The position numbers were made by a program, and so were the translations under genes. A stretch of 41,587 bases of DNA from Thermoleophilia bacterium (GTDB taxonomy: Bacteria > Actinomycetota > Thermoleophilia > BMS3ABIN01): positions 1 to 41,587 of the forward strand of contig JACUUL010000011.1 in NCBI GenBank assembly GCA_014859345.1, written 5' to 3'. Below are positions 4,222-28,184 of the stretch, piece by piece; within the stretch, counting starts at the first letter, position 1; the number at the start of each line of letters is the position of its first letter. The notes under the pieces are model-generated. The model searched no databases. It was not told the DNA's origin and saw nothing but the letters and a program-made list of their open reading frames with translations.

Positions 4222-5676
4222 ATGGATCTCAATCTGATTTCTCGCGGCAAGGGAGTTTTCAATCGTGCGAGGCATGAGGCGGCGGAACGGGTGTTCAGCC
4301 AGTCTCTGAATGTTCTGGCACATTCACCGGACCGGAATTATCAGCGTGTGGCCCAGGCTCTGGGCCGGCTCGCCAAGACCAAGCAGCAGCGGATGGTAGC
4401 GGACTGGATGAGCGGCTACCTGGCGCCAGGCGGTCCCGGCGCCGAGTATTTCAACCGGGTGCTAAAAAACGTTCATCCCAATGTGCGAAAAAACTATTTT
4501 GCCAGGACTATCGTCAGCCTTTTCTTCCGCGACCCGGAGGTATCCAGGCGCCTGATCGAGCAGGAAGGCGTCAGCGTTCCCAACCTGATCGTCATCTCCC
4601 CGACCATGCGGTGCAATCTTGATTGCGTCGGGTGCTATGCAGGGAACTACACCAAAGCCGACGACCTGCCGGCCGAGGTCATGGACCGGCTCATAACGGA
4701 AGCAAAGGAGATGGGCATCCGGTTCTTTGTCATCACAGGCGGTGAGCCATTTGTTTACCGGCCTCTCCTGGGTTTGATCGACAAGCATGATGACGTCGCT
4801 TTCCAGATATACACCAACGGCACGCTCATCGACGACAAAATGGCAGTTCGCCTGGTTGAACTGGGCAATGTCGCCCCCGCTATCAGCGTGGAAGGCTTTG
4901 AGGAAGAGACCGACGCCAGGCGGGGCGCCGGCACCTTTCAGAAGGTAATGCGGACCATGGACAGGCTTCATGAGCGGGGTGCGGTTTTCGCATTCAGCAC
5001 CACGGCTTCGCGCCGGAACATAGATGTGATTACCAGCGACAGTTTCGCGGATCTGATGATCGGGAAGGGCGTCTCCTACGGCTACTATTTCTCCTATGTC
5101 CCCATTGGGAAGTCACCCGATCTGGCATACATGCCTACCCCGGCCGAGCGCCACAAGCTGCGCGAGGGAGTAAACCGGATACGTCGGGAGAAACCGGTTC
5201 TGGTGGGCGATTTCTGGGGAGACGGGACTTTAACCGGAGGCTGCCTGGCGGCCGGGCGCAAATACGTGCACATAAACAACAAAGGCGATGTCGAGCCGTG
5301 CGTCTTCTGTCATTTCGCCACCGACAACGTCAAGGAGACGACTTTGCTGGAAGCACTCAAATCGCCCTTCTTTCAGTCTATCCGCGACCGTCAGCCTTTC
5401 GGCCACAACCTGCTGAGGCCATGTCCCATAATCGACCATCCCAAGGTGATCCGCAAAGCGGTTGAGCAATTTGGCGCCTACAGCACGCATGAGGGCGCCG
5501 ATACCCTGATAACAGATCTGAGCGAAGGGCTCGACCGGTACGCGGAGGAACTTGAACGGTCGGCGGAAAGCTTTTGGGACACCGAATATTCCTGGGCCCA
5601 GAACTGGCTCACGGACGAGCAGAAAGCGGCGGCATCAAGGGCCGAGGCCAGTCTGCGCGAAGATGCGCGGGTATAA
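4222..5676 (+). CDS. Radical SAM protein with C-terminal cysteine-rich (SPASM-like) region
   Basis: A 484-residue protein. Residues about 130-139 hold the radical SAM cluster motif CNLDCVGC (CxxxCxxC), followed by the GGEP SAM-binding motif near residue 174 (ITGGEPF). A cysteine-containing C-terminal block (TGGCLAAGRKYVHINNKG, then EPCVFCH and RPCPIIDHP) looks like an auxiliary Fe-S region of the SPASM/twitch kind. About 120 N-terminal helical residues precede the radical SAM core, which is unusual for short maturases. The ATG at 4222 follows GGGGAGA. Radical SAM enzymes of this broad group (COG0535) modify peptides, cofactors or lipids; I recognise no specific characterised subfamily and no precursor peptide nearby. 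It is followed by the IlvD/Edd dehydratase, 28 bp from stop to the favoured downstream start. Confidence 0.85.
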   Translation: MDLNLISRGKGVFNRARHEAAERVFSQSLNVLAHSPDRNYQRVAQALGRLAKTKQQRMVADWMSGYLAPGGPGAEYFNRVLKNVHPNVRKNYFARTIVSLFFRDPEVSRRLIEQEGVSVPNLIVISPTMRCNLDCVGCYAGNYTKADDLPAEVMDRLITEAKEMGIRFFVITGGEPFVYRPLLGLIDKHDDVAFQIYTNGTLIDDKMAVRLVELGNVAPAISVEGFEEETDARRGAGTFQKVMRTMDRLHERGAVFAFSTTASRRNIDVITSDSFADLMIGKGVSYGYYFSYVPIGKSPDLAYMPTPAERHKLREGVNRIRREKPVLVGDFWGDGTLTGGCLAAGRKYVHINNKGDVEPCVFCHFATDNVKETTLLEALKSPFFQSIRDRQPFGHNLLRPCPIIDHPKVIRKAVEQFGAYSTHEGADTLITDLSEGLDRYAEELERSAESFWDTEYSWAQNWLTDEQKAAASRAEASLREDARV

Positions 5677-19522: not shown

Positions 19523-20776
19523 ATGCTGAATTTTCTCTCGATGCACATGTTGTCAATGCGGCGGATATTCGTCGTCATGGTGACTTTTGGCCTTTTTATG
19601 GGCCTGATGTTTCCGTACGTGGTGGATCCTTTCGTGGTATGGGAGCCAGACCGCAAGATATATTTCAGGCTGGCATGCCTGGCCGCCGGCCTGGCTGTGG
19701 GAGCTTTCTGCTTCTTGCTGGTAAGAATGACCATTTATCACAACAACACGCTGCTGGCCCGCCGGAAGGCCGAGCTGGAGGGCGCCAAGGAGAGATTTGC
19801 CTCGCTGACCAGACGGGCCATTGAAACCAGGGACTGGTCGGTCGTTTTTGAGGATCCTCATCTGCCCACCTGCTGGCGGGTCAAAGGCTGCGACTTCTCT
19901 GACTGTCCGGCTCATGGACATGAACACGTTCGGTGCTGGCTGTTGACGGGAACCTGCTGCGACGGACGGACACAGGGGCAGTTCGCTCAGAAACTGGGGG
20001 ATTGCTCTGCTTGCGAGGTGTACCGGGAGGCGGTAGGACAGGATCCGATCAATGAGATTGGCGAGAACTTCAACAGCCTTATGCTGGCCGTGCATGAGAA
20101 GGAGGGGCAGCTTGCCTCAGCCCACGAGGAACTGCAGGCCCGCTATTCCGAACTGGAGGTCCTGCATCGGCAGGCGCGGAAGATGGCCACTACGGACCTG
20201 TTGACAGGCCTGAAAAATCACGCGCATTTCCAGAAGCTTCTAAGACGCAAGCTCAATGAAACAAGGAAGAAAAGAAGTCAGCTGTCGCTGGTGATGCTGG
20301 ATCTTGATCATTTCAAGGAGATTAATGACTGCCACGGCCACCAGAAGGGGGACGAAGTGCTTAAACGGGTTGGCGGCTTCCTGCGGGAAAAGGTTACACA
20401 TGGATTCGCGGCCAGGTATGGTGGCGAAGAATTTATCCTGGTGCTGCCGGGGGTCGGCTGCGACGCCGCGGTTGAACTTGCGGATGGCCTGCGGGTGAAA
20501 TTGCGCGACCTGGTCCGGAGCGGAGGCTTACAGATGTCGGCAAGCTTTGGCGTCGCTGATTTTCCCGCGTCAGCGCGTGATACGAACGGGCTGATCAAAG
20601 CTGCCGATTTGGCTCTTTTGTGCGCGAAACGCAAAGGACGAAACCGGGTGGAAAACTTCCGGGATCTCTCCGAGGACGACCTGCGCGACCGGAGGAGCGT
20701 AGACCTTTCCGGCAGAGGGAGACATGAGCTTCTGGCCGATGATCCGGGGCGGGGTTCGCGCCGCGCAGTCAGTTGA
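19523..20776 (+). CDS. Membrane diguanylate cyclase with two-CW-type Cys-rich domain
   Basis: 417 residues from ATG 19523, behind AGGGGGCG (a GTG at 19502 is 7 codons upstream). Two membrane helices (about residues 10-38 and 49-71) are followed by a short linker and a Cys-rich domain (about residues 108-180) with CWRVKGC, DCPAH, RCW, TGTCCDG and CSACEVY, which resembles the two-CW domain. A coiled-coil segment leads to a GGDEF domain whose active site reads RYGGEEF (about residue 300). No RxxD inhibitory site is seen just upstream of it. The product is therefore predicted to make c-di-GMP in response to a signal sensed by the Cys-rich domain, perhaps metal or redox; that input is inference. 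Its last codons overlap the leuA promoter. Confidence 0.88.
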   Translation: MLNFLSMHMLSMRRIFVVMVTFGLFMGLMFPYVVDPFVVWEPDRKIYFRLACLAAGLAVGAFCFLLVRMTIYHNNTLLARRKAELEGAKERFASLTRRAIETRDWSVVFEDPHLPTCWRVKGCDFSDCPAHGHEHVRCWLLTGTCCDGRTQGQFAQKLGDCSACEVYREAVGQDPINEIGENFNSLMLAVHEKEGQLASAHEELQARYSELEVLHRQARKMATTDLLTGLKNHAHFQKLLRRKLNETRKKRSQLSLVMLDLDHFKEINDCHGHQKGDEVLKRVGGFLREKVTHGFAARYGGEEFILVLPGVGCDAAVELADGLRVKLRDLVRSGGLQMSASFGVADFPASARDTNGLIKAADLALLCAKRKGRNRVENFRDLSEDDLRDRRSVDLSGRGRHELLADDPGRGSRRAVS

Positions 20777-20801
20777 AATCCCGTTCAAACTCAAATATGA
20801 T
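20773..20801 (+). promoter_or_regulatory. Sigma70-like promoter of the leu operon
   Basis: TTGAAA (20773-20778), a 17-nt spacer, then TATGAT (20796-20801): five of six consensus bases in the -10 and optimal spacing. It overlaps the end of the upstream diguanylate cyclase gene. The expected transcript start is about 20808-20811, coinciding with the ATG of the leader peptide, so that message would be essentially leaderless. Confidence 0.7.
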
Positions 20802-20810
20802 AACGGATTG

Positions 20811-20945
20811 ATGGTTGCATCATATCGGAACAGTTTTTTCACGTCACGTGATGCGGCTTCCTCCATGGGAGCCGGCCCGCCGCCGGCTGCCCTGAGCCTC
20901 CTTCTTGGCCTGCTTCTCCTCCCCCCGGCGGGGGAGATTATCTGA
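20811..20945 (+). CDS. Leucine-rich leader peptide of the leuA attenuator
   Basis: A 44-codon frame starting at ATG 20811, right at the predicted transcript start, or 26 codons from ATG 20865; neither has a clear ribosome site. Residues 28-37 read LSLLLGLLLL, giving eight Leu codons within ten (20892-20921), using CTG, CTC and CTT. Its stop TGA (20943-20945) is the first part of a terminator stem. Leu-codon runs just before leuA are the classic sensor of leucyl-tRNA charging in ribosome-mediated attenuation. The peptide itself probably has no function. The frame and Leu run are seen directly; the regulatory role is inferred from placement. Confidence 0.75.
   Translation: MVASYRNSFFTSRDAASSMGAGPPPAALSLLLGLLLLPPAGEII
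20919..20936 (+). promoter_or_regulatory. Leader hairpin at the end of the Leu-codon run
   Basis: CTCCCCC pairs with GGGGGAG around a CGGC loop; the 5' arm includes the last Leu codon. A second perfect stem, AGCCGGC/GCCGGCT (20870-20888), lies just upstream of the Leu run. A ribosome stalled on Leu codons would open the 20919-20936 hairpin, freeing GGGGGAGATT to pair elsewhere, possibly with AATCT and the U-run after the terminator. Confidence 0.45.
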
Positions 20946-20981
20946 CAGTTTGCCCGTGCGGCAAACCCGTCAATCTTTTTT
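20943..20981 (+). terminator. Attenuator terminator of the leu leader
   Basis: A stem of TGAC + GTTTGCC (20943-20954) pairs with GGCAAAC + GTCA (20960-20972) around a CGTGC loop: 11 bp with a 1x2 internal mismatch, followed at once by ATCTTTTTT (20973-20981). This is an intrinsic-terminator layout placed between the leader peptide and leuA. A weaker hairpin, AAACCA/TGGTTT (20985-21003) with a T-run, follows just before the leuA ribosome site and could be a second stop or a mutually exclusive structure. Confidence 0.65.
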
Positions 20982-21018
20982 CCGAAACCACGCAATTTGG
21001 TTTTTTTGAGGAGAAGCC

Positions 21019-22539
21019 ATGAATCCTGAACGCATAATCATATTCGACACCACCCTTCGCGACGGAGAACAGTCCCCGGGCATCAGCCTGAACTCTTTCG
21101 AGAAGCTGGAGATAGCGGAGCAGCTGGCGCGCCTGGGCGTCGACGTCATCGAGGCGGGGTTCCCGGTGTCTTCGCCGGGCGATTTCGAGGGAGTGCAGAA
21201 GATAGCCCGGGGCGTTTCCGGCGTGACCGTCTGTGCCCTGGCGCGGGCCATCGAGAACGATGTCCGCACCGCCTGGGACGCGATCAGGGAGGCCGAACGC
21301 CCCCGTATCCATACTTTCATCTCGACGAGTGACATTCATCTTCAGCACCAGCTGCGCAAATCCCGCGAGGAAGTCGTGGAGATCGCCAGGCGCATGGTGG
21401 CGCTGGCCGCAAGCCTTGGCGATGACGTGGAGTTCTCGGCCATGGACGCCACCCGGAGCGACCCGGATTTCCTGGCCGCTGTTCTGCGGGTGGCGATAGA
21501 CGAAGGGGCGCGCACCATTAACATACCGGACACGGTGGGCTACGCGATCCCGACGGAGTTCGCGGAGTTCATCAGGGGACAGTATGAAAGGGTGCCGGGA
21601 CTGAACGATGTGGTGGTCAGTGTCCATTGCCACAACGACCTGGGCCTGGCGGTGGCCAATTCGCTGGCCGCGGTCGAGGCCGGCGCCAGGCAGGTGGAGT
21701 GCGCGGTAAACGGCCTGGGCGAGCGGGCCGGCAACGCTTCGCTGGAAGAGGTCGTCATGATCCTCAAAACCAGGGAGGCGTCACTCGGAATGGGCGCCGC
21801 AGTAAACACCGCGGAGATCACGCGCACCAGCCGGCTGGTGAGCCAGCTGACCGGTTACGAGGTACCGCCCAACAAGGCCGTCGTGGGCAAGAACGCTTTC
21901 GCGCACGAGTCCGGGATACATCAGGACGGGGTGCTGAAGGAGCGCACAACTTACGAGATCATGAGCGCCGCAAGCGTCGGGCGGGGCCACAGCGACATCG
22001 TGCTGGGCAAGCATTCGGGAAGGCACGCCCTGAAGTCGGCCATGGAGGAGCTGGGATATAATCTGTCGGAGGACGAGCTCAACCAGACCTTCGCCCGGTT
22101 CAAGAAAGTGGCTGACAAGAAGAAACACATCACGGCGGTTGACCTGGAGGCTCTGGTGAGCGAAGAAGTGAGGACGCTGTCGGACATCTACGAGCTCAAA
22201 TCCTACGAGGTGAGCTCGAGCTCGGAATTCATTCCCACCTCCCAGGTTATCATCGAGAAAGAAGGAGAACGCCTGATGGGCAAGAGTTTCTCCGGCGGTT
22301 CGATGGAGTCGATCTTCATGGCCATCGATGACGCTGTGGGAACCAAAGGCAAGCTGAAGGACTACCAGGTGCACTCGGTGACCGAGGGCAAGGATTCCCT
22401 GGGAGAGGTGCGGGTGGTGGTCGAGGTAGGCGACAAACCGTACGCCGGCACGGCGCTTTCCATCGACGTGATCGAGGCAAGCGCCAAGGCTTATGTGCGG
22501 GCGCTCAATAACGCCTACAGAGCCGGGGCGGTGAACTGA
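21019..22539 (+). CDS. leuA: 2-isopropylmalate synthase
   Basis: 506 residues, condensing acetyl-CoA with 2-oxoisovalerate, the committed step of leucine synthesis. The catalytic TIM barrel has DTTLRDGEQSPG at the N-terminus, SVHCHNDLGLA (metal-binding His) and VNGLGERAGNA. The linker contains GKHSGRHAL, and the C-terminal regulatory domain (about residues 385-500) is present, as expected for a leucine-inhibited enzyme. The ATG follows GAGGAG. It is the first structural gene of leuA-leuC-leuD-leuB-ilvE-cimA and is preceded by the leader attenuator. Confidence 0.95.
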   Translation: MNPERIIIFDTTLRDGEQSPGISLNSFEKLEIAEQLARLGVDVIEAGFPVSSPGDFEGVQKIARGVSGVTVCALARAIENDVRTAWDAIREAERPRIHTFISTSDIHLQHQLRKSREEVVEIARRMVALAASLGDDVEFSAMDATRSDPDFLAAVLRVAIDEGARTINIPDTVGYAIPTEFAEFIRGQYERVPGLNDVVVSVHCHNDLGLAVANSLAAVEAGARQVECAVNGLGERAGNASLEEVVMILKTREASLGMGAAVNTAEITRTSRLVSQLTGYEVPPNKAVVGKNAFAHESGIHQDGVLKERTTYEIMSAASVGRGHSDIVLGKHSGRHALKSAMEELGYNLSEDELNQTFARFKKVADKKKHITAVDLEALVSEEVRTLSDIYELKSYEVSSSSEFIPTSQVIIEKEGERLMGKSFSGGSMESIFMAIDDAVGTKGKLKDYQVHSVTEGKDSLGEVRVVVEVGDKPYAGTALSIDVIEASAKAYVRALNNAYRAGAVN

Positions 22540-22551
22540 TTGCCGGAACCG

Positions 22552-23811
22552 ATGACGATAACCGAGAAGATCCTGGCGCGCGCCTGCGGCCGGGAAGAGG
22601 CCCACGCCGGCGAGTTCGTCAATGCCCGCCTGGACCTGGCGCTGGCAAATGACATCACGGCGCCTCTGGCAATCAAGGAGTTTGAGGCGGCCGGCGTCGG
22701 GAAGGTCTGGGACCCGGACAGGGTGGTCATGGTGTGCGACCACTTCGTTCCGAACAAGGATATCCAGTCGGCGGAGCAGGCCAAGCTGGTGCGTGATTTC
22801 GCACGCCGCCAGGAACTGGGCAATTTCTTTGACGTGGGCCGGATGGGCATCGAGCATGTCATCCTTCCGGAGAAGGGACTGGTCGGGCCCGGTGACGTGG
22901 TCATCGGCGCCGACTCCCATACCTGCACCTACGGCGCCCTGGGAGCCTTCGCCACCGGGGTGGGCAGCACTGACCTGGCGGCCGGCATGGCCACCGGCGA
23001 GGTGTGGCTCAGGGTGCCCGAGTCCATCCGTTTGAACTATCACGGCGAGCCGGGACCGTTTCTGACCGGCAAGGATTATATCCTGTACACCATCGGGCTG
23101 ATCGGCGTGGACGGCGCCCTCTACCAGGCCATGGAATTCGCCGGCGAGGCGATCGAGGCCCTGTCGATGGACGGGCGCTTCACAATGTGCAACATGGCCA
23201 TCGAGGCGGGCGGCAAGAACGGCATTGTCGAGCCGGACGCGGTGACGGAGGAGTACATCCACGGCAGGTTCAGAGGGGAGCCGAAGTATTTCAGCAGCGA
23301 CCGGGAGGCTGCCTACGCCCGCGTGATCGACATCGATGTGGCGGCAATGCAGCCCCAGATAGCCAAGCCCCATCTGCCGTCCAACACCGTGCCGGCCGCG
23401 GATATCGCCGGCCTCAAGGTGGACCAGGTGGTCATCGGCTCCTGCACCAACGGCAGGATCGAGGATCTGAGGATGGCGGCCGAGGTGATGAGGGGGCGCA
23501 AGGCGCATCCGGACGTGCGGGTTCTGGTCTTCCCCGGCTCCCAGAGCGTTTACCGGGAGGCCATCCGGGAAGGGCTCATCGATGTGTTTGTCGAGGCTGA
23601 GGCGGCCGTCAGCACGCCCACCTGCGGGCCCTGCCTGGGCGGGCACATGGGCATCCTGGCCGCCGGTGAGCGGTGCGTGGCCACCACCAACCGCAACTTC
23701 GTGGGCCGGATGGGACACGTCGATAGCGAGGTCTACCTGGCCGGACCCTACGTGGCCGCGGCCACCGCTGTTGCCGGCGAGGTGGCCGTACCGGAGGAGG
23801 CGCCGGCATGA
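22552..23811 (+). CDS. leuC: 3-isopropylmalate dehydratase large subunit
   Basis: 419 residues from ATG 22552. A TTG at 22540, directly after the leuA stop, would add four residues; neither has a strong ribosome site, and coupling to leuA is likely. Cluster and active-site blocks typical of the ~420-residue bacterial/archaeal LeuC type are visible: [26 protein letters not shown] and [12 protein letters not shown] (Fe-S cysteines). With LeuD it isomerises 2- to 3-isopropylmalate. The same pair probably acts on citramalate made by CimA from this operon. Confidence 0.95.
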
Positions 23812-24314
23812 GCGGCATGGTATTCGAGGGGACAGCGCACAAGTTCGGGCGCGACGTGGACACCGACGTGATCATTCCGGCGAGGCACCTGAAAACAACC
23901 AGTCCGGACGAGCTGGCCGCTCACTGCATGGAGGACATCGACCGGGATTTCATCAACCGGGTCAAGCCGGGCGACATCATCGTGGCGGAACAGAACTTCG
24001 GGTGCGGCTCCTCACGGGAACAGGCGCCGGTGGCCATAAAGGCGGCAGGCGTGGCCTGCGTCGTCGCGGTGTCGTTCGCGCGCATCTTCTACCGCAACGC
24101 CATCAACATCGGTCTGCCGATCCTGGTTTGTCCGGAAGCTGCCCGGGAGACCGAGAGCGGCGACCTGCTCCGGGTGGACCTGGATAAGGGCGAGGTCACC
24201 AACCTGACCAGGGGAAAGGTTTATGAGGCGGAGCGCTTCCCCGAGTTCATGCAGAAGATCGTGGCGGCGGGCGGCCTGATGGGCTATGTGAAGGAACGAC
24301 AGAAGGAGCAATAG
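23808..24314 (+). CDS. leuD: 3-isopropylmalate dehydratase small subunit
   Basis: 168 residues, overlapping leuC by 4 bp (ATGA). It shows [15 protein letters not shown] at the N-terminus, the [12 protein letters not shown] substrate-binding loop and [16 protein letters not shown]. This is the swivelling domain of the LeuCD isomerase. A 106-bp gap follows before leuB; it has no clear promoter or terminator, although a TTGACA occurs in it without a good -10. Confidence 0.95.
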
Positions 24315-24420
24315 ATTGATATCGGAAGCAGCGAAGCGTATAAAACAAGTCAAGCGAGCGGCCCCGGCAGGAATGCAGGCTTGACAATCATTTAAGGACA
24401 GGCGAAGCAATGGAGGCCAG

Positions 24421-25479
24421 ATGCACAACATAGCGGTAATGCCCGGTGACGGCACCGGGCCGGAGGTGGTTCGCGAAGGCTTGAAAGTTCTGGCGGCGGC
24501 GGCCGCGCGGCATGATTTCCAATACGAGACCACGGATTACGACTTTGGCGGCGACCGTTACCTGAAGACGGGGGAGACGCTGCCCGATTCGGCCATCGAC
24601 GAACTGGCCTCCCATGACGCCATCTTTCTGGGAGCCATCGGCCATCCCGACGTGAAGCCGGGCATCCTGGAGCGGGGCATCCTGCTGAAAGCCCGCTTCG
24701 CCCTTGATCAGTACATAAATTTGCGACCGGTCAAACTCTACCCGGGCGTGCAGACCCCCATAAAGGACAAGGGGCCGGAAGACATTGACTTCGTGGTGGT
24801 GCGCGAAAACACTGAAGGCCTGTACGTGGGCGCCGGAGGCTTCCTGAAGGCAGGCACGCCTGACGAGGTGGCCATCCAGGAGAGCATCAACACCCGCAAG
24901 GGGACGGAGCGCTGCATCCGATATGCTTTCGAATATTGCCGCGAGCGGGGGAAGGAGAACAAGCTCACATTATGCGGCAAGACCAACGTCCTTAACTTCG
25001 CGCACGATTTGTGGCAGCGTGCTTTCAACGAGGTGGCGGCGGAGTATCCCGGCGTCACCACGGATTACGCCCACGTGGACGCCATCTGCATGTGGTTCGT
25101 GAAGAATCCGGAATGGTTCGACGTTATCGTCACCGACAACATGTTCGGAGACATCATCACCGACCTGGGCGCGATGATCCAGGGAGGGATGGGCATCGCC
25201 GCGGGCGGCAACATCAACCCCGGGGGGGTCTCCATGTTCGAGCCCATCGGCGGTTCGGCGCCCAAATATACGGGCATGAACATCATCAATCCGATGGCGG
25301 CCATTGCCGCGGTGCAGATGATGCTGGAGGTACTCAAGGAAAAAGAGGCCGCGGCGGCTGTCGACAGGGCCATCGCCCACGTCACGGCGGAAAAACTGAA
25401 GAGCCTGGCCGTGGGCAGGACCGGGTACTCAACCTCCGAGATAGGGGACATGGTGGCCGAACGCGTGCGGGAAGGGTAG
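24421..25479 (+). CDS. leuB: 3-isopropylmalate dehydrogenase (isocitrate/isopropylmalate dehydrogenase family)
   Basis: 352 residues from ATG 24421, with GGAGG 5 nt upstream. It has the beta-decarboxylating dehydrogenase blocks [44 protein letters not shown] and the NAD-binding [13 protein letters not shown] region. The NAD-loop and the YVGAGG insertion resemble the actinobacterial/tartrate-dehydrogenase-like LeuB branch rather than E. coli LeuB. The operon position makes isopropylmalate, and probably methylmalate from CimA, its substrates. Confidence 0.9.
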
Positions 25480-25528
25480 CGAGGACCTGAGAGCAGATTA
25501 GTGGCGGGATTAGTTTGAAAGGAGCCTT

Positions 25529-26443
25529 ATGCCGATACCTGAGGTCTCGAAAATTTGGATGAACGGCAAGCTGGTTGACTGGCAGGATGCCACGGTGCAT
25601 CTGCTGACGCACGCGCTGCATTACGGATCCGGCGTTTTCGAGGGCATCCGGGCCTATGACACCGCCAAAGGGACCCATGTTTTCCGGCTGACCGATCACA
25701 TGAAAAGGCTGGAGCGTTCGGCAAAGATTTACATGATGGATTTGCCGTTCAGCGTCGAGGAGCTGGTTCAGGCGACCAAAGACGTCATCCGGACAAACGC
25801 GCTGGAGAGCTGTTACGTGAGGCCGATAGCTTATCGCGGCTACGGCGAGATGGGTCTCTTTCCGCTGCATGCACCGGTGGACGTGGCTATTGCCGTCTGG
25901 CCCTGGGGAACCTACCTGGGCGATGAGGGCATAAAGCACGGCATCCGGGCCAAGATTTCCTCCTTCCGCAGATTCGGGCCCAACAGCATGCCGCCGGCGG
26001 CCAAGGCCACCGGCCAGTACATCAACTCCAGCCTGGCGAAGGTGGAGGCAGTCAAGGCCGGCTACGAGGAAGCGATTCTGCTGGATGACCAGGGGAACAT
26101 CTCGGAAGGCTCCGGGGAGAACATATTCTTGGTAAGAGACGGAGCGATAGCGACACCGCCGACGTTCTGCGACGTGCTCGATGGCATCACCGCCGATACC
26201 GTGTTCGCTATCTGCAGGGACGAAGGCATCCCCCTTGACAGAAAAGTGCTGGTGCGCTCTGACCTGTATACGGCCGATGAGGCTTTTCTGACCGGCACGG
26301 CGGCCGAGATCGTGCCGCTGAGGGAGGTCGACGATCGCGTCATCGGCACGCCGGGGCCGGTAACCAGGAAGATACAGGATATTTTTTACGGCATTATCAA
26401 GGCCGAGAACGATAGATATGCGGACTACCTGGAATGGGTGTAA
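25529..26443 (+). CDS. ilvE: Branched-chain amino acid aminotransferase
   Basis: A 304-residue fold-type IV PLP enzyme. Lys159 in PPAAKATGQYIN is the PLP lysine. Other hallmarks are HYGSGVFEGIRAY, YVRPIAYRGYG and ISEGSGENIFLV. It carries out the last transamination to leucine, isoleucine and valine. The ATG follows GAAAGGAG. It is in the leu operon, 49 bp after leuB. Confidence 0.95.
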   Translation: MPIPEVSKIWMNGKLVDWQDATVHLLTHALHYGSGVFEGIRAYDTAKGTHVFRLTDHMKRLERSAKIYMMDLPFSVEELVQATKDVIRTNALESCYVRPIAYRGYGEMGLFPLHAPVDVAIAVWPWGTYLGDEGIKHGIRAKISSFRRFGPNSMPPAAKATGQYINSSLAKVEAVKAGYEEAILLDDQGNISEGSGENIFLVRDGAIATPPTFCDVLDGITADTVFAICRDEGIPLDRKVLVRSDLYTADEAFLTGTAAEIVPLREVDDRVIGTPGPVTRKIQDIFYGIIKAENDRYADYLEWV

Positions 26444-26495
26444 AATTTCCTGGAAAACGCCTAAAAGAACAATATCCGTACGCCGTTCCGCGTAT

Positions 26496-26568
26496 GTCAT
26501 TCCCGGCAAGCGAAAGGACGTGTTTTTACTTAAACCGATTTCCGGCAGCTTTGCTTTCCCGGAGTGAC
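26496..26568. repeat. Imperfect inverted repeat in the ilvE-cimA gap
   Basis: GTCATTCCCGGCAAGCGAAAG (26496-26516) is nearly the reverse complement of CTTTGCTTTCCCGGAGTGAC (26549-26568), separated by about 32 nt. The pair would fold into a long hairpin in the leader of cimA. The GTCATTCCCGG-type arm resembles short dispersed extragenic repeats in other bacteria. Similar fragments (CGGGATGACA near 29329, GTCATCCTG near 33766) occur in other gaps of this window. Confidence 0.5.
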
Positions 26569-26588
26569 AATCCGGAAATTTTACAGAT

Positions 26589-28184
26589 ATGAACAGACGC
26601 ATAGAAATATATGACACGACTCTTCGTGACGGCATGCAACGGGAAGGCATGAGCGTCTCGGTGGACGAGAAGGTCCAGATCGCGCTGAGGCTGGACCGCC
26701 TGGGCGTGCACTACATCGAGGGAGGCTTCCCGGGCTCGAATCCCAAGGATGTCGAGTTTTACGAAAAGATGTCCAGGCAGAAGCTGCGGACGGCAAAGAT
26801 GGCCGCCTTTGGCATGACTCACAAGCGGGGCGTCAAGCCGCACCAGGACCCTCTGCTCAAGCAGCTGCTCAAGGTGGAAACGCCGGTGGCGACCATTGTC
26901 GGCAAGAGCTGGAAGCTGCATACCCGCAAGGTAATTCGGGTGGGCCTGGAGGAAAACCTGAAGATGATTGAAGACACTGTCCGCTACCTGGTCAGACGCG
27001 GCCGGGAGGTCTTCTATGACGCGGAACATTTCTTCGACGGTTTCCGGGACGACCCGGAGTATTGCCTGGCCACGCTCAGGGCGGCAGCCGGCGCGGGGGC
27101 TTCCCGTTTGATTCTTTGCGACACGAACGGCGCGACACTGCCAGGGGAGGCGGCGGCGGTCGTGGGCCGCGTGCGCGAGGAGATTCCCGAGGTGCCGGCG
27201 GGCATCCATGCTCACAACGACTCTGATTGCGCCGTCGCGGTTTCACTGATGGCCGTGGAAGCCGGGGCCGATCAGGTTCAGGGCACCGTCAACGGGTACG
27301 GCGAGCGCTGCGGCAACGCCAACCTCATATCCGTCATTCCCGATCTGAAACTGAAGATGGGGCTGGACTGCGTCAGCGACAAACAGCTTGCCGAACTGAC
27401 CGAAACATCGCATTACGTGGCGGAGATCTGCAATGTGAGCCCGGAGACGCACCAGCCTTTCGTGGGCGAGAACGCCTTTGCCCACAAGGGCGGCCTGCAT
27501 GTGAGCGCGGCCCTCAGGGACGCCCGCACTTTCGAGCATATCGACCCGGCCCTGGTCGGCAACCGGCAGCGGATCCTCGTGAGTGAGCTGGCCGGCCGCG
27601 CCACCCTGCTCAAGAAAGCGGCGGAGATGGGCATGGACCTCGGCAAGGACAAGGAAACCCTGGGCCGGATGCTCAAGCGGCTCAAGGAGAAGGAGCATCA
27701 GGGATACCATTACGAGGTGGCCGACGCGTCGCTGGAACTTTTCCTAAGGCGTGAGCTGGGCCTGCACGAGCCCCTGATAGAGCTGGACAACTTCCGTATC
27801 ATCGTCCAGAAACGCAAGCGGGCCGTCATCAGCGAGGCCAAGATAGTGCTCAAGGGAGAGCATGGGACAGAGATGCCCATCGCCTTCGCAGAGGGAAACG
27901 GACCGGTAAACGCGCTGGATATCGCGCTCAGGAAACTGCTGCCGGTGAGATATCCCAAACTGGCGGAAGATCTTTCCCATATCCATCTGGTCAATTACAA
28001 GGTGCGCATCCTCAACGAGCACCAGGGCACAGCCGCAGTCACCCGCGTGCTGCTGGATTCCAGTGACGGCCACAACACATGGGGCACTATCGGCGTCTCT
28101 GAGAACATCATCGAAGCCAGCTGGGAGGCGCTGGTCGACAGCCTCGAGTACGGTCTTACCAAGAAGCGCCGGCGCCGCCGCTGA
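26589..28184 (+). CDS. cimA: (R)-citramalate synthase
   Basis: A 531-residue LeuA paralogue. It starts IYDTTLRDGMQREGMSVSVDEK, contains GIHAHNDSDCAVA (metal His), VNGYGERCGNANL, and FVGENAFAHKGGLHV, and has a C-terminal regulatory-like domain followed by a KKRRRRR tail. The DGMQREG and GHND-like variants match the citramalate synthase branch, which condenses acetyl-CoA with pyruvate to give a threonine-independent route to isoleucine. No strong ribosome site is seen before ATG 26589. The adjacent leuCD and leuB would complete that route. Confidence 0.9.
   Translation: MNRRIEIYDTTLRDGMQREGMSVSVDEKVQIALRLDRLGVHYIEGGFPGSNPKDVEFYEKMSRQKLRTAKMAAFGMTHKRGVKPHQDPLLKQLLKVETPVATIVGKSWKLHTRKVIRVGLEENLKMIEDTVRYLVRRGREVFYDAEHFFDGFRDDPEYCLATLRAAAGAGASRLILCDTNGATLPGEAAAVVGRVREEIPEVPAGIHAHNDSDCAVAVSLMAVEAGADQVQGTVNGYGERCGNANLISVIPDLKLKMGLDCVSDKQLAELTETSHYVAEICNVSPETHQPFVGENAFAHKGGLHVSAALRDARTFEHIDPALVGNRQRILVSELAGRATLLKKAAEMGMDLGKDKETLGRMLKRLKEKEHQGYHYEVADASLELFLRRELGLHEPLIELDNFRIIVQKRKRAVISEAKIVLKGEHGTEMPIAFAEGNGPVNALDIALRKLLPVRYPKLAEDLSHIHLVNYKVRILNEHQGTAAVTRVLLDSSDGHNTWGTIGVSENIIEASWEALVDSLEYGLTKKRRRRR

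Follow-up and report, generated by a model that had tools for sequence, protein, structure and literature searches.

Results

A leucine-rich leader ORF lies directly ahead of leuA

The window analyzed here, a stretch of 41,587 nucleotides, belongs to a draft Thermoleophilia genome (2.08 Mb in 122 contigs) and carries the gene order leuACDB-ilvE-cimA behind a leader region (Table 1). The 5' neighbor of the leader and leuA is a diguanylate-cyclase gene that ends at 20776. The –10 box of the leader promoter ends 9 nt before the leader ATG in 16 of the 17 genomes of the window's family and 10 nt before it in the remaining one (L016). Transcription would thus start just 5' of the ATG at 20811 and, because this short spacing recurs in the family, the leader ORF is probably leaderless.

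A preliminary description of the locus, made by reading the DNA alone, had pointed to a frame with eight leucine codons in ten, placed directly before leuA, and both observations hold. The codons are CTG AGC CTC CTT CTT GGC CTG CTT CTC CTC (LSLLLGLLLL), the stop is the TGA at 20943-20945, and across the six frames of the 41.6-kb window no other site reaches at least 7 Leu in 10 codons. With few exceptions, the 17 family leaders share the C-terminus LLLLP(L)xGEII*. Their internal indels preserve the frame, and TGA, TAG and TAA are each in use as stops. Over the last 16 codons of these leaders, synonymous differences exceed nonsynonymous ones in frame (pS 0.305, pN 0.173), the corresponding pS/pN values in the two other frames being 0.154/0.214 and 0.186/0.193. 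These sequence patterns support the view that the leader peptide is translated and would sense leucine for leuA.

One further hairpin, at 20855-20873 within the leader ORF, is conserved in the window's family only; its GGGAGG arm could pair with CCTCCC of the leucine run.

Table 1. Features of the leuA leader and of the genes behind it, in window coordinates
Feature	Position	Strand	Evidence or conservation
Leader promoter, TTGAAA - 17 nt - TATGAT	20773..20801	+	Consensus scan 10/12
Leader ORF MVASYRNSFFTSRDAASSMGAGPPPAALSLLLGLLLLPPAGEII*, 44 codons, probably leaderless	20811..20945	+	Conserved in 17/17 family genomes
Upstream hairpin within leader ORF, GGCTTCC TCCAT GGGAGCC	20855..20873	+	Family form CCTCCC..GGGAGG
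Leucine codon run, 8 Leu in 10 codons	20892..20921	+	LLLL(P) kept in family and class
Base stem, 5' strand (anti-Shine-Dalgarno) GCTTCTCCTC, inside Leu codons	20912..20921	+	
C5/G5 hairpin, end of leader ORF	20922..20934	+	Class-wide; 100% of cells paired, some two-sided changes
Second hairpin (core 20948-20966), the 'terminator' stem of the preliminary description	20943..20972	+	Core invariant in family
U-run after second hairpin	20976..20981	+	U-rich in 17/17 family members, longest run 3-8
Base stem, 3' strand, leuA Shine-Dalgarno region GAGGAGAAGC	21008..21017	+	
leuA, 2-isopropylmalate synthase (TIGR00973 / NF002086 type), regulated gene	21019..22539	+	hmmscan E = 5e-226
leuC, leuD, leuB, ilvE and citramalate synthase (cimA) genes, 3' of leuA	22540..28184	+	hmmscan

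The leucine codons are complementary to the leuA Shine-Dalgarno region

The strongest pairing in the leader, overlooked in the preliminary description, joins 20912-20921 to 21008-21017 as a perfect 10-bp complement that forms the outer stem of the MFE structure. The leader (20808-21018) folds better than all of its shuffles (200/200, z = –3.7). We then folded it by ribosome position, an equilibrium calculation in which only the RNA ahead of the ribosome was allowed to pair. In the ribosome-free RNA the base stem had a mean probability of 0.82; it kept 0.69-0.98 while the ribosome was still upstream, until the A-site reached 20901, and dropped to 0-0.04 when the run was covered. With a ribosome on the run, the predicted cost of opening the leuA start region dropped in the window from 13.0 to 6.2 kcal/mol and, as a mean over the 17 family members, from 12.8 to 7.8 kcal/mol, with a gain above 2 in 16 of them. 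Much of this effect is due to composition, since a shuffle of the leucine run alone accounts for a mean of just 2.2 kcal/mol in the family, the specific part of the effect. The Shine-Dalgarno still pairs partly and weakly with the U-rich tract in the stalled-state fold. A ribosome stalled at leucine codons is predicted to open the base stem; it would leave the proposed terminator hairpin untouched.

As a contiguous helix, the base stem is significant against shuffles (p<0.05) at 13/17 loci of the window's family (f1) and at 8/13 in family f4; when the window's helix is clipped to 7 bp, p = 0.13. A permissive test that allows gapped duplexes does not single out the window by itself (z = 0.5), and gapped-duplex and local-alignment complementarity tests with cross-family partners gave a weak result, being too permissive in GC-rich sequence; they were complemented by the contiguous-helix test and by covariation counts. 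There is no within-family covariation in f1 because the base stem is nearly invariant there. One f1 locus, L012, has an altered run with a matching altered partner, GCTCCTC with GAGGAGC. The partner strand of families f33 and f35 usually lies off the Shine-Dalgarno, its end being some 20-50 nt short of the leuA start codon; support for sequestration of the Shine-Dalgarno in the literal sense is therefore best in f1 and f4.

The hairpins enclosed by the base stem

The hairpins and the U-run named in the preliminary description were recovered where it had placed them: a hairpin overlapping the end of the leucine run (the C5/G5 hairpin), an 11-bp stem starting at the TGA, a U-run behind it, offset by a few nucleotides, and a weak hairpin before the leuA ribosome site, at about 20984-21003. 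The core of the 11-bp stem is GTTTGCC-CGTGC-GGCAAAC, to which TGAC/GTCA is added across an A/CC mismatch. Its pairs vary compensatorily across the class, and in some family members the outer TGAC/GTCA is changed in a compensatory manner to TAAC/GTTA. The 19-nt hairpin GTTTGCCCGTGCGGCAAAC (20948-20966) is invariant, loop included, in 17/17 family members, beyond what pairing needs. A simple terminator scan of the window did not report the hairpin at 20943-20972. When leaders of relatives were aligned, the leucine run and the hairpin proved conserved; U-richness at the position corresponding to the U-run is absent in the other class families, which retain the hairpins.

The leader layout is conserved across the class

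Besides the 17 genomes of the window's family, about 80 further class genomes, like most of those compared still in draft, have the layout. We examined the leuA upstream regions of 105 class loci, the 17 family loci included; the layout turned up in 98 of them by a simple search, and most of the remaining 7 show it by eye. A near-leaderless Leu-rich ORF is followed by a C-run/G-run hairpin, a second GC hairpin and the Shine-Dalgarno, with the leader stop in the loop of the C-run/G-run hairpin or just after it. The peptide usually ends in LLLLPLRGE* or LLLLPR*. The leader of L034, from a Thermoleophilia bacterium MAG whose leuA is 82% identical to that of the window, is that of family member L015.

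A covariance model (R1) was built from 13 family leaders and 40 matches were aligned; a second model (R2) recovers leaders outside its building set. The base stem and hairpins of the R1 alignment contain 59 two-sided cells versus 16.6 in shuffled alignments (0/500; slid controls 4-19), and loci outside the R2 building set contain 37 versus 13.7 (0/500). Counts of this kind are inflated by the fitting of both alignments (A3 and A5) to the structure; the leaders compared are also related to one another. Rfam covariance models, including the leu leader and the T-box, did not match the leader at gathering score, and relaxed thresholds brought chance matches only.

The element accompanies several leucine genes

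The window's genome has a single R1 match, before leuA. Scanning 61 class genomes with R2 gave 50 matches, 44 of them directly upstream of a same-strand leuA. Among the 6 others, L238 precedes a leuA (leuA_bact) gene that had gone unmatched in an earlier leuA search. The element also stands before another leuA (L239) and, at L241, before a gene of the leuA_yeast type whose genome carries a leuA_bact with its own leader as well. Two class matches, L240 and L242, were judged to be chance. In one class genome the element lies before leuS, the leucyl-tRNA synthetase gene (L237, G083:C85:25863-25958).

In a wider scan, 160 of 299 class genomes had a match at E≤0.001. Two of the extra sites sampled from it, L245 and L248, precede leuA_yeast. 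One genome has a second copy before leuCD, which there lies apart from leuA (L244, G141:C1:1236995-1237098), and another has two near-identical copies 1.1 kb apart upstream of leuA (L243, G272:C50:4305-4416 and 5428-5527). Outside the class there were matches in only two genomes (G401 and G355); those inspected look like low-complexity sequence and were judged to be chance. Since the element accompanies leucine genes of unrelated ancestry, a leucine sensor is the best explanation for it.

Discussion

The locus combines a leader ORF with a coding signature, a base stem with covariation across the class, a predicted effect of ribosome position on folding and an association with leucine genes. 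From these features we infer leaderless initiation, ribosome stalling, the direction of the regulation and control of translation rather than of RNA level. We propose, with a probability of roughly 0.7, that the leader is a leucine-responsive ribosome-mediated attenuator acting mainly on the initiation of leuA translation. According to this model, transcription would start just before the leader ATG and ribosomes would load straight onto the leader ORF. With ample leucine, the ribosome would clear the leucine codons and terminate at the TGA at 20943; 20912-20921 would then pair with 21008-21017, enclosing the inner hairpins, and leuA translation would be low. At low levels of charged tRNA-Leu, it would stall on the leucine run and cover 20912-20921, which would free the Shine-Dalgarno region and allow leuA to be translated.

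The preliminary description proposed a classical transcription attenuator, in which the hairpin at 20943-20972 and its U-run terminate transcription unless a ribosome stalled on leucine codons permits an antiterminator to form. The part of that proposal concerning a translated, leucine-sensing leader stands, given the excess of pS over pN in frame; the transcription termination part we regard as unlikely. In favor of termination, 17/17 family members have both the hairpin and a U-rich tract, the outer stem shows the compensatory changes described above, and classic Leu leaders with terminators precede leuA in other Actinomycetota (L120, L137 and L139). However, a ribosome on any leucine codon has its front edge at or before about 20933 and misses the hairpin, whose folding would be prevented by a ribosome that has reached the stop codon. 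Termination would thus have the wrong sign, because the stalled ribosome leaves the hairpin free and there is no antiterminator to compete with it: the pairing suggested for this role, GGGGGAGATT with AATCTTTT, is not conserved, and no conserved antiterminator was found among relatives. In addition, the U-rich tract does not follow the stem immediately and in some members contains no run longer than 3, other class families have the hairpin without the U-run while retaining all else, and the terminator scan was negative at the window leader. As a stem with an immediate U-run does exist elsewhere in the phylum, in the three leaders just named, the contrast between the window and true Leu attenuators is meaningful. 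No likelier, in our judgment, is control at both levels, with leucine-dependent sequestration of the Shine-Dalgarno and a partial terminator, either constitutive or coupled, that only the window's family has. It would account for a U-rich tract conserved only in f1 beside a base stem and hairpins found class-wide, and the compensatory variation of the outer stem in some members means that a terminator may play a minor role in f1; yet the tract could instead be a spacer or give the Shine-Dalgarno a second pyrimidine partner, as it does when the stalled state is folded.

Alternatively, the conserved hairpins could bind a regulatory protein and the Leu-rich ORF be secondary, a role already suggested for the LEU element in leuA operons of actinobacteria. 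The family-wide invariance of the second hairpin, loop included, fits such a role, as do that published proposal and the Streptomyces Leu-codon mutants (PMC1262725). On the other hand, the sequence of the hairpin varies freely between class families that retain the leucine run, and recurrence before several leucine genes fits leucine sensing by codons; we consider protein binding improbable. A broader version of our main reading, translational attenuation by leucine, is in our estimate an even bet: a class-wide transplantable leucine sensor in which the codons of a leaderless Leu-rich ORF double as anti-Shine-Dalgarno, controlling translation without a terminator or pseudoknot, now standing ahead of several leucine genes that are not homologous to one another (two leuA types, leuCD and leuS) and perhaps sharing ancestry with the pseudoknotted LEU element.

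In erm and cat translational attenuators, a ribosome that stalls while translating a leader ORF releases the Shine-Dalgarno from sequestration. The window's leader would work in the same way, except that the signal would be leucine limitation and not an antibiotic. It shares with the classical Leu attenuators (L120, L137 and L139) a short Leu-rich leader peptide upstream of leuA. Those leaders encode short peptides such as MSQNLLLT* and have terminator-like stems with U-runs. Their stem is directly followed by the U-run, whereas the conserved competing pairing in the window involves the Shine-Dalgarno.

As described by Seliverstov et al. 2005 (PMC1262725), the LEU element has an ORF whose Leu run pairs with the leuA Shine-Dalgarno to form a base stem, with a pseudoknot inside it. 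The Leu-run leader ORF, the Leu-run/Shine-Dalgarno base stem and the lack of an evident terminator are common to both systems. Inside the base stem, however, the LEU element has its conserved pseudoknot and the window has simple nested hairpins, which may or may not correspond to the alternative nested hairpins described for the LEU element with the same base stem. Interleaved helices of at least 6 bp were absent from the window and present in the actinomycete leaders L113-L116. The LeuA proteins also differ, that of the window being of the TIGR00973 type and those of LEU-element actinomycetes of the leuA_yeast type. In a related Streptomyces leader, Leu-codon mutations are reported to deviate from the prediction of classical attenuation (PMC1262725), a point against our model, although such mutations would alter the base stem too.

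The Leu leader peptide LeuL1 of Streptomyces lividans (MRFGLLLLSCRGEGL*) is encoded by a leaderless ORF ahead of leuA, where no typical intrinsic terminator is present (PMC8079986). It resembles the class leaders in being leaderless and in its C-terminus, LLLL..RGE compared with LLLLPLRGE*, and differs from them in its inner RNA structure and in its non-orthologous leuA. The likeness of the peptide ends LLLLSCRGE and LLLLPLRGE is a lead pointing to possible common ancestry. L116, which carries the LeuL1 peptide, is unmatched by model R2; together with the lack of a pseudoknot and the other leuA type, this makes the window's leader a variant acting in the manner of the LEU element without belonging to it.

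The description of the LEU element (PMC1262725) did not settle how leucine controls actinobacterial leuA, and the literature searched offered no later resolution, nor anything on a Thermoleophilia leader or on leaderless cysteine attenuators in mycobacteria. The simpler, pseudoknot-free form of the element studied here, its clear covariation and its recurrence at several leucine genes make Shine-Dalgarno sequestration directly testable, and a covariance model is now available to annotate a leader family absent from Rfam. Most likely, the leader is a conserved leucine translational attenuator, a new variant related in kind to the LEU element.
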